DNA of 64,000 bases from Agrococcus baldri (GTDB taxonomy: Bacteria > Actinomycetota > Actinomycetes > Actinomycetales > Microbacteriaceae): positions 1 to 64,000 of the forward strand of contig BJUU01000011.1 of NCBI GenBank assembly GCA_007988785.1, in the 5' to 3' direction. A program made the translations under genes and the position numbers. This document shows positions 8,515 through 11,036 of the stretch, one piece after another. A model generated the notes under the pieces. The model was not told the DNA's origin. It saw nothing but the letters and a program-made list of their open reading frames with translations, and did no database searches. The number at the start of each line of letters is the position of its first letter. Within the stretch, counting starts at the first letter, position 1.

Positions 8515-8946
8515 ATGACCCTGCCCACCGAGCCCGACGAGGCGACCAGGGCGCTGCTCGAGCGGCGCGGCGGCAGGCCGGGCGGGCAGCTGGCCGAGCG
8601 CATGGGCATCGAGTTCCTGCAGCTCTCGGCCGAGCACTCGATCGCGCGCATGCCGGCGGACGGCAACCTGCAGCCGGTGGGCCTCGTGCACGGCGGCGCC
8701 TACTGCGTGATCGCCGAGACGCTCGGATCGGTCAGCGCCAACATCCACGCCGGTGAGGGCCGCTACGCGGTCGGCACCGACATCAACGCCACCCACACGC
8801 GCTCGATCTCGACCGGCTGGGTCACCGCCGAGTGCCGCGCGGTGCACCTGGGCCGCTCCATGACGGTGCACGAGGTCGTCTGCACCGACGACGAGGGCCG
8901 CCGCGCCTCCACCCTCCGCATCACCAACTTCATCAAGACCCGCTGA
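8515..8946 (+). CDS. PaaI-family hotdog thioesterase
   Basis: 143 residues with the 4HBT hotdog fold. The central helix motif P-V-G-L-V-H-G-G-A-Y-C-V-I-A-E supplies the usual catalytic Glu. The expected role is hydrolysis of an acyl-CoA thioester, with unknown acyl group. It starts at ATG 8515 behind GGAG. It is one of the few plus-strand genes and is divergent from polA. Thioesterase genes next to polA/pyk are common in actinobacteria. Its 3' end runs into the left 20-bp repeat array. Confidence 0.92.
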   Translation: MTLPTEPDEATRALLERRGGRPGGQLAERMGIEFLQLSAEHSIARMPADGNLQPVGLVHGGAYCVIAETLGSVSANIHAGEGRYAVGTDINATHTRSISTGWVTAECRAVHLGRSMTVHEVVCTDDEGRRASTLRITNFIKTR

Positions 8947-8992
8947 CGCCGCCCCGCCGCGCCCCGCACCCATCCCCACCCACCCCAAGCCC

Positions 8993-9060
8993 CCATTGGC
9001 GCCTCCCGCATCTGAGTGGCGCCTCCCGCATCTGAGTGGCGCCTCCCGCGCTTGAACGGC
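8993..9060. repeat. Left 20-bp tandem array of an inverted pair (3' side of the DUF559 gene)
   Basis: Two perfect units TGGCGCCTCCCGCATCTGAG (8997-9016, 9017-9036), a third with a changed tail (9037-9056) and the start of a degenerate fourth. Positions 8993-9050 form a perfect 58-bp inverted repeat with 10090-10147. The outermost unit reads CATTGG instead of AGTGG in both arms. The array lies between the convergent ends of the thioesterase and DUF559 genes. Confidence 0.95.
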
Positions 9061-9093
9061 GCACTCCGCGGCACGAGGCGATCGAGGCGTGGC

Positions 9094-9984
9094 TCACGCG
9101 GCCGTCCACGCGACGTAGCGGCGGTGGGCGGCCACGATCTGCGCGAGGAGACGCGTGCCGCCGTCGTCCAGGTCGTGCTTGGTGACCGTGATGATGTGCC
9201 AGCCGAGGGCACGCAGCCGCTCGATCCTGGCGAGGTCTCGCGACCGCTGCTCAGGTTCGGTGTGATGCTCGCCGTCGTACTCGACGCCGAGCTTGAGTTT
9301 GGGCCAGCTCAGATCGAGCCTCGCGATGAAGGTGCCGGATGCATCGAAGACCTCGTGCTGCAACGTCGGCTCGGGCAGCGCACCGATGACGAGCAGTCGC
9401 ACGAGCGTCTCGCGCGGCGACTCCGCGCCGACCCGAACGAGCGAGAGGGCACGGCGTGCGCGGTGAAGCCCGCGCGCCCCGCTGTAGCGACGCAGCGCAT
9501 CCGTCAGCTCATCGACCGAGAGCGGCGCTTGTCGCTTGGGCGACACCAGCCAGTCTCCGACGATGACCAGCTCCTCGACCGTCAGCATGGTCGCCAGGTG
9601 GATGAAGACGTCGGGGCGGGACTCGACCCGAAGTCCGTCGACCTCGACCGTCGTGGACTTGAGCCGGTGACCGACCACACCGGGTCGCACCATGCGTGCC
9701 CGTCCGGTGGGTGAGGCCAGGTGCACTCTGGCCTCGCTCTCGAGCCGCGTCGGCAGCGGCATGCCATGGATGCGCGCGGCCGTCGAGTGCGAGAAGAACT
9801 GGTCGTCGACGGCGAGGACGCGGACAGCCTCGAAGAGCGCCTGCGCGTCGTCGCCGATGGCGGCGGTGATGCGGGCCCCGCGGGCAGGCGAGGTGAACGC
9901 CATGGAGCGGAGCTCCGCGGCTGTGTAGCCGCGGTCGAGGCCCGCGCGGACGGTGAAGCCGTGTGGTGATTCCATGCGCGGCAT
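9094..9984 (-). CDS. DUF559 protein with AbiEi-like N-terminus and PD-(D/E)XK-type C-terminal domain
   Basis: 296 residues. The N-terminal third (GFTVRAGLDRGYTAAELRSM) resembles the winged-helix region of AbiEi-like antitoxins. The C-terminal part is a DUF559/Vsr-like nuclease fold with D224 in a short strand, then E235-Y-D237, then a basic helix: the spacing of a PD-(D/E)XK metal site. Family members are common and often multicopy in Microbacteriaceae, mostly of unknown function. The start is uncertain: ATG at 9984 or 9975, or a GTG at 10044 inside the repeat array. The gene is alone between two inverted arrays of a 20-bp repeat, which suggests it moves, or is maintained, with them. Confidence 0.85.
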   Translation of the reverse strand: MPRMESPHGFTVRAGLDRGYTAAELRSMAFTSPARGARITAAIGDDAQALFEAVRVLAVDDQFFSHSTAARIHGMPLPTRLESEARVHLASPTGRARMVRPGVVGHRLKSTTVEVDGLRVESRPDVFIHLATMLTVEELVIVGDWLVSPKRQAPLSVDELTDALRRYSGARGLHRARRALSLVRVGAESPRETLVRLLVIGALPEPTLQHEVFDASGTFIARLDLSWPKLKLGVEYDGEHHTEPEQRSRDLARIERLRALGWHIITVTKHDLDDGGTRLLAQIVAAHRRYVAWTAA

Positions 9985-10040
9985 GGTGTGCCATCTGGTG
10001 GCTCGCCGGCGGCCAGCGACCGCATGGTTGTGGAGAACCG

Positions 10041-10147
10041 CCACTCACACGCGCGAGGCGCCACTCACACGCAGGAGGCGCCAGTCACACGCGGGAGGCG
10101 CCACTCAGATGCGGGAGGCGCCACTCAGATGCGGGAGGCGCCAATGG
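10041..10147. repeat. Right 20-bp tandem array of the inverted pair (5' side of the DUF559 gene)
   Basis: Five 20-bp units from 10041 to 10140 plus a partial sixth. The last two are identical (CCACTCAGATGCGGGAGGCG) and the three nearest the gene have CACAC in place of CAGAT. Positions 10090-10147 are the exact reverse complement of 8993-9050. The array occupies the region upstream of the DUF559 gene and just after the pdtaR stop, so it may also influence transcription of the gene. Confidence 0.95.
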
Positions 10148-10158
10148 AGCGGAGGGGG

Positions 10159-10800
10159 CTACTTCTTGGGGGTGCCGAGCTGCTCGATGACGGCCTGCGC
10201 GACCTCGGCCATCGTGAGGCGGCGGTCCATCGACGCCTTCTGGATCCAGCGGAAGGCCTCCGGCTCGGCCAGGCCCATGCGCTGGTTCAGCAGGCCCTTC
10301 GCGCGGTCGACGAGCTTGCGGGTCTCGAAGCGGTCGGCGAAGTCGGCGACCTCCGACTCGAGCGCGCGGATCTGGTCCCAGCGGGCCAGCGCGATCTCGA
10401 TCGCCGGCAGCAGGTCGTTCTGCGTGAACGGCTTCACGACGTAGGCCAGCGCGCCGGCCTCGCCCGCCCGCTCGACGAGCTCCTTCTGGCTGAAGGCCGT
10501 CAGCAGCACGACCGGCGCGATCTTCGCCGCACCGATCTTCTCGGCAGCGGTGATGCCGTCCATCTTCGGCATCTTCACGTCCATGACGACCAGGTCGGGC
10601 TTCAGCTCGGTCGCGAGCTCGACCGCGCGCTCGCCGTCGCCCGCCTCGCCGACGACCTCGAAGCCTGCGGCCTGCAGCGTCTCGACGATGTCGAGGCGGA
10701 TGAGCGACTCGTCCTCGGCCACGAGGACGGTGCGTGCGGTGGAGGGGGTCGGCGCGTCAGCCGTGTCGAGCTGCGGCTCGGCGAAGAGGTCGTCGGTCAT
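10159..10800 (-). CDS. pdtaR: ANTAR-domain response regulator (PdtaR type)
   Basis: 213 residues. The receiver domain has acidic residues E29/D30, phospho-acceptor Asp74 (V-V-M-D-V-K-M-P), a L-L-T-A-F switch region and K-P-F; the C-terminal ANTAR RNA-binding domain is at about 150-205. It should be phosphorylated by an unlinked histidine kinase and act as an RNA-binding antiterminator, as Rv1626 does in Mycobacterium, whose neighbourhood (pyk, polA, rpsA) matches this one. The start ATG 10800 lies 7 bases after a TAGGCT box, so the mRNA is probably leaderless. Confidence 0.92.
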   Translation of the reverse strand: MTDDLFAEPQLDTADAPTPSTARTVLVAEDESLIRLDIVETLQAAGFEVVGEAGDGERAVELATELKPDLVVMDVKMPKMDGITAAEKIGAAKIAPVVLLTAFSQKELVERAGEAGALAYVVKPFTQNDLLPAIEIALARWDQIRALESEVADFADRFETRKLVDRAKGLLNQRMGLAEPEAFRWIQKASMDRRLTMAEVAQAVIEQLGTPKK

Positions 10801-10973: not shown

Positions 10974-11031
10974 GGTCTCGATACGGCCCTTCGGGCCTAC
11001 TCGACCAGCGTTGGGGCCTCCTCGACCAGCG
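10974..11031. repeat. Interspersed repeat, tandem copy and a half
   Basis: GGTCTCGATACGGCCC-TTCG-GGCCTACTCGACCAGCG, containing a short GGCCC/GGGCC hairpin, then a second partial copy GGCCTCCTCGACCAGCG. The same family (GTCTCGATACG...CTACTCGACGACC) occurs at 29634-29673. It fills the gap between the tRNA terminator and the pyk stop. Confidence 0.75.
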
Positions 11032-11036
11032 TGGCG

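Follow-up and report, generated by a model that had tools for sequence, protein, structure and literature searches.

Short palindromes are commonly found dispersed in genomes, and an enzyme is known for some of their families only. REP sequences are scattered in genomes also at places without an adjacent RAYT gene.

The REP/RAYT system (REP/REPIN/RAYT, TnpA-REP or 'REPtrons'), as outlined in PMC3733652, probably resembles in its workings the gene and repeats of Agrococcus baldri described here. In both, short palindromic or inverted repeats are dispersed (here chiefly between genes, by crude ORF calls), a resident gene is flanked by its own repeats, as is also the case elsewhere in Agrococcus, gene and repeats are absent together, and the repeats vary by lineage. 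The enzymes differ, being a HUH tyrosine transposase there and a putative Vsr/PD-(D/E)XK-like protein here; the present repeats also have no GTAG tag at their ends, and they form tandem 20-bp arrays in the clade of the window (the whole 64-kb stretch of DNA analysed). GTAG occurred in one of the 35 arms or elements scanned, in its loop, and the hairpins of loci L133 and L134, outside those 35, hold it internally. Lacking both a HUH enzyme and a GTAG tag, which are defining features of REP/RAYT, the DUF559/array system is best read as an analogue, not a member. The CGTC-tagged REPs, listed without a known transposase in the account of PMC3733652, are likewise palindromic families lacking a RAYT, whereas a partner gene is proposed here for the DUF559-linked repeats. 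CGTC lies near one end of three of the 15 elements of genome G005 and inside all five copies of one G500 family, and is absent from the window arms. With the homing endonuclease I-Bth0305I and with Vsr, the protein likely shares its catalytic fold, as judged from a predicted model; unlike them, it is encoded by a resident gene whose flanking arms also occur dispersed as short repeats. The AbiEi antitoxins are similar to the N-terminal part of two relatives, and give a weak fold match, but here that part is fused to a nuclease domain.

The segment consists of the following features, in order of position:

8515–8946, plus strand: thioesterase gene, a conserved neighbour, with 46 bp between its stop and the left arm.
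8993–9062, no strand assigned: left arm, downstream of the DUF559 gene; 20-bp units with the GAGTGG end outward, outermost copy CCATTGG.
9094–9975, minus strand: DUF559 gene, with a likely C-terminal Vsr-like nuclease domain and an N-terminal part that is probably AbiEi-like.
10039–10147, no strand assigned: right arm, upstream of the DUF559 gene; five inverted 20-bp units and an outermost partial unit.
10159–10800, minus strand: pdtaR-like response regulator gene, a conserved neighbour, with 11 bp between its stop and the right arm.

The two neighbours, which we take to be a thioesterase and a pdtaR gene following the initial annotation, are convergent, with the DUF559 gene and its arms between them. 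That annotation had described 8993–9050 and 10090–10147 as exact reverse complements built of 20-bp units around a DUF559 gene, with even the deviating outer unit common to both arms, and our comparison agrees on each point: 8993–9062 and 10078–10147 agree in 66 of their 70 positions, no mismatch falls in the outer 58, and the outermost CCATTGG lies within that outer part. No other exact inverted 20-mer pair at most 5 kb apart was found in the window. Tandem Repeats Finder reported a period of 20 at 8997–9049 (2.7 copies) and at 10039–10143 (5.2 copies). A hairpin within each 20-bp unit, judged by eye only, was dropped as a candidate, and a known RNA family was rejected, as Rfam gave no match in 8900–10250. 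A second short tandem repeat, GCCTACTCGACCAGCG, lies beyond pdtaR in two species (window 10993–11032 and L136:3326–3384; Tandem Repeats Finder).

The minus-strand ORF 9094–10044 matches DUF559 with 21.6 bits (cut-off 20.6) and the MTES_1575 REase with 28.6 bits, under its cut-off of 38.2; the gene likely starts at the ATG 9973–9975, since conservation begins there. In Pfam searches with 14 and 13 members, the matches were chiefly to REase_MTES_1575 and DUF559, and no transposase family was matched at E up to 0.1; the DUF559 protein is not a RAYT. PMC3710099 assigns MTES_1575 to the Vsr-type nucleases. In the AlphaFold model (mean pLDDT 72.5), quality is good from about residue 131 onwards and poor in the part preceding it. 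By E-value, the model's first Foldseek row was a mitoribosomal protein (E 0.032, probability 0.80, TM 0.23), followed by the I-Bth0305I catalytic domain (3r3p; probability 1.00, E 0.038) and Vsr (1vsr; 0.99, E 0.081), with a weak AbiEi match to 6y8q (0.33, E 0.26); no match of the window protein reached E 0.001. AbiEi models matched two of the three proteins scanned, L145 (E 5.1e-6) and L141 (2.6e-5), and gave no match in the window protein. The enzyme likely has a Vsr/homing-endonuclease-like domain, going by the model, and probably an AbiEi-like part. Its dN/dS was 0.14–0.26 against 11 orthologues of at least 71% identity, and 0.40 and 0.43 against two more distant ones.

The unit is dispersed in the window's own genome (G000), where a single-unit pattern with at most two mismatches gave 82 matches, as opposed to 2 for the reversed control, and a two-unit pattern gave 112, as opposed to 9. 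Stray singles aside, the matches cluster in 13 places, the window locus included (up to 12 others), and the DUF559 gene is present at one of the 13. Both arms are seen at seven of the 12 other places, with less than 100 bp between them (8–88 bp at the six read in 8-kb loci, about 25 bp at the seventh, on contig C18). Arm polarity is fixed: the GAGTGG end points outward at all 12 two-armed loci among 19 array loci from three genomes, the other seven being single-armed. Locus L115 shows weaker reverse-orientation matches within an arm, and one arm in G002 (L104:2929–3825) has about 45 units over nearly 900 bp, with matches every 60 bp. Contigs C5, C7, C16 and C18 of G000 end in or beside an array, which makes it probable that arrays interrupt assemblies and that draft genomes contain more of them than are counted; some of the places at contig ends may be halves of one place. 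None of the six other DUF559 loci of this genome is flanked on both sides by period-20 arrays; a tract of that period lies about 0.9 kb from L007, and L003 has 25 nt common to its two flanks. The initial annotation had held that units scattered in many gaps without a DUF559 gene would refute a partnership of gene and array. Such scatter is literally what was found, and the partnership is not overturned by it, because REP sequences also scatter without RAYT genes.

A DUF559 homologue lies between the thioesterase and pdtaR genes in 19 of the 24 Agrococcus genomes (loci L117–L131, L136 and L145, and two more in G007 and G013); in G013 the pdtaR side of the site was seen, the thioesterase side falling outside the locus read, in G009 a contig break inside the array left the polA side directly visible, and the query of the pdtaR homologue search carried two extra residues. 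By Tandem Repeats Finder, period-20 arrays flank the gene on both sides at 14 of the 17 numbered loci and on one side at L124 and L130; L131 has them on neither side, with degenerate units visible on both. The flanks of the G013 and G007 genes (L178, L179) have 12 and 16 nt in common. In the remaining five genomes (G004, G005, G011, G019 and G022) the site is a short gap with neither gene nor arrays.

Gene and arrays also co-occur genome-wide. The unit of the window was rejected as a genus-wide marker, being found in 13 of the 24 genomes with units that vary; the variants were found by a profile, R1, whose 20 source arrays adjoin DUF559 genes, in one case a relative located elsewhere. With the top 150 candidates of each genome scored and an E limit of 0.01, R1 gave 9–110 matches in each of the 19 genomes where the locus is occupied, counts in which a long array yields several matches and arrays beside the gene are included, and which in G006, G007 and G013 are not all assignable to the syntenic gene. 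The gene-less genomes gave 0 (G004), 1 (G005), 0 (G011), 3 (G019) and 1 (G022), with the reservation that a profile of this origin could miss unlike units. On a rough tree of three conserved proteins, rooted on G004/G011/G022, the absences fall on three branches: G005 stands among array-bearing genomes beside G020, at a node that is weak, as are several others, and G019 is sister to G008 (3 matches vs 53). G019 is 65% complete and has a 55% relative of the gene elsewhere. The gene has an in-frame stop in G021 (L120) and G003 (L136), genomes that still hold 73 and 47 R1 matches, which suggests recent gene loss or sequencing error. Applied under stricter filters (13 candidates per genome) to 388 genomes from other genera of the family, R1 had no match at 1e-6, a setting that would miss weak arrays, as G007 drops from 30 matches to 1 under it; the window pattern had one isolated match in the same 388. 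The association of gene and repeat is strong, and we hold it with high confidence.

The arrays that flank orthologues differ in unit sequence between species: GAGTGGCGCCTCCCGC in the window, GAGTGGTCATTCCCGC in G008, GAGTGGCCACTTCCCC in G014, GAGCGGTCGCTTCCGC in G003 and GATTGGCCACTTCCTGC in G006 (protein identity 47%). A Curtobacterium relative of about 40% identity (L158) has a similar core in its flanks. By Blast of fetched loci, dispersed arrays lie at orthologous places in different species; because several of these sites are common to different species, the data favour copying between sites over new insertion. Six orthologous array pairs were compared, sorted by eye into like and unlike unit types. 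In all three unlike-type pairs (G000/G003 twice, G000/G001) the array is closer to the gene-flanking units of its own genome, with similarities of 0.73, 0.76 and 0.76 to own units vs 0.57, 0.54 and 0.58 to the other's, and of 0.70, 0.69 and 0.66 vs 0.62, 0.58 and 0.62. The G000/G020 pair differs little (0.71 vs 0.66 and 0.69 vs 0.65), and G000/G002 and G009/G015 show no consistent direction of own-unit resemblance. This own-genome resemblance at shared sites in the unlike-type pairs suggests that arrays are copied between sites within a genome.

We regard it as probable that the gene with its two inverted arms is the resident master locus of dispersed inverted-arm repeats, which would be bound, cut and copied through the action of the nuclease. 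The N-terminal part would bind the arm core, GANTGGYCA or GANTGGCGC, and the Vsr/homing-endonuclease-like C-terminal domain would nick or cut there. Repair would then copy arms between sites, giving rise to dispersed arrays that lengthen by 20 bp at a time and remain similar to one another. In the window clade, single arms would have grown into tandem arrays, while some relatives kept plain hairpins. Binding, cleavage and templated copying of the arms by the DUF559 protein are what we infer from these patterns, and nuclease-driven arm copying appears the likeliest reading of the mechanism. Points against it are the high E-values of the fold matches and the poorly modelled N-terminal part, the abundant arrays of G003 and G021 despite the in-frame stop in their gene, and, as set out below, the first G500 gene, whose hairpins have no dispersed copy, and the relatives without a common flank motif. 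That a PD-(D/E)XK-type protein might partner the arrays in the manner of REP/RAYT had been proposed at the outset; synteny, co-occurrence, species-specific units and the other gene/repeat pairs described below speak for it.

The alternative that survives best, although we consider it unlikely, is that the arms are operator or nucleoid-organising sites through which the protein regulates itself and other loci, its nuclease activity being irrelevant to their spread. The AbiEi-type N-terminal matches in two relatives and the presence of arms near the gene on both sides agree with it, and the spacing of about two helical turns would suit cooperative binding. Among 13 members of 30–55% identity to the window protein, however, D244, H261 and D270 never vary and E255 hardly does, residues that we take to be the catalytic ones of Vsr-like/EDxHD nucleases, and the change of units at shared sites needs a copying process.

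It is distinctly improbable that gene and arms together form a conventional mobile element whose terminal inverted repeats are compound, as the inverted arms, the short gene-less gaps in five genomes and the relatives with a similar core at other sites might indicate. Against this stand the single syntenic place in 19 of 24 genomes, the lack of a transposase-family match and the occurrence of DUF559 at one of 13 array places of its own genome. A fresh insertion of the gene is rejected by synteny, which corrects the initial annotation's view of the segment as a likely insertion: the same place is occupied in 19 genomes, and five have gaps without gene and arrays.

There is very little probability that the repeats are passive hairpins or terminators, linked to DUF559 by the coincidence of one site. 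Seven of 17 array loci do lie between convergent ORFs (seven are tandem and three divergent, by crude ORF calls), but DUF559 relatives at other places carry flanking motifs of their own. We compared the left and right 350-bp flanks of such genes for exact nucleotides in common, with a threshold of 14 nt that was fixed after the tables were seen. Among the Agrococcus relatives (69 genes after prior removal of one duplicate locus; 67 tested, two having short flanks), 43 had at least 14 nt in common, vs 21/600 mismatched pairs, among which orthologues with like units are included; the counts become 57/67 vs 105/600 at 12 nt and 33/67 vs 8/600 at 16 nt. Searched at 1e-30 over 297 genomes from 94 genera of the order, a profile of 13 diverse members detected relatives in 183 genomes and 61 genera. 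For 68 of these loci, 28 taken from the search program and 40 from a listing in rank order with gaps, flanks not yet seen, the counts were 44 vs 5/700 mismatched pairs at 14 nt or more, 54 vs 65/700 at 12 nt and 31 vs 2/700 at 16 nt. Ordinary genes, 92 in number and all from Agrococcus, had 14 nt in common in 2 cases and 12 nt in 15. A control of random 950-bp segments (32/400 at 14 nt) was left unused, as its pool contains DUF559 loci themselves. About a third of the relatives, 24/67 in Agrococcus and 24/68 in the order, have no common flank motif of 14 nt. Judged by the mismatched-pair and ordinary-gene controls, the passive-hairpin reading appears already disfavoured.

Dispersal of such motifs was seen in five of the six gene/motif pairs judged, the window family included. 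In G005, which is without window-type arrays, the half-motif on either side of its own relative L137 has 26 matches (control 1; 0 to 2 matches in each of the other 23 genomes). They make up hairpins at 15 places, of which two adjoin the gene and one falls in the thioesterase/pdtaR gap. Three further genomes (G345, G481 and G500) were sampled, chosen for clear palindromes. In 400 kb of G345 there are 23 paired elements, four of them beside the gene, and single matches number 60 vs 16 reversed at up to five mismatches and 42 vs 1 at up to four; a seventh pair, L320 of this genome, was left out, its motif core being common with that of L361. G481 has three dispersed and two flanking copies in 380 kb, with none for the reversed motif. 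The first G500 gene has hairpins on both sides and no dispersed copy in 400 kb. The same sample holds a further 59-bp hairpin family of five copies (reversed, 0), for which we predicted in advance, and then found, that it flanks the second G500 DUF559 gene on both sides, a success that speaks against the passive-hairpin reading. Around L413–L431 of G481 are further hairpin families, e.g., TGTGGGTACG...GATGGCGTGG, with several copies in 380 kb. Where L113 (G000) and L293 (G005) cover roughly one region, a 20-bp array stands opposite an unrelated 54-bp hairpin, and their alignment leaves more than 1 kb of extra sequence in G000.

Least probable of all is a defence or toxin–antitoxin-like nuclease with the arrays as decoy or self-marking sites, in spite of the AbiEi matches in two relatives and weak PADLOC matches for the nuclease part, given the conserved location between the same two genes.

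Beyond Agrococcus, we lean slightly towards a wider reading of nuclease-driven arm copying, in which this actinobacterial order harbours widespread repeat systems, selfish or domesticated: a Vsr-like nuclease, one part of which is AbiEi-like, would spread and homogenise its own palindromic or tandem-array repeats by cut-and-copy, with a DNA code of its own in each protein clade. Among open PMC papers we found no report linking DUF559 to dispersed repeats, and an earlier one elsewhere is possible; DUF559 genes with their own repeats look like a so far undescribed counterpart of REP/RAYT. If this is true, a second, unrelated enzyme class would mean that REP-like populations arose more than once, actinobacterial repeats would have a candidate cause, and the family would offer many natural protein/motif pairs for reading DNA recognition.
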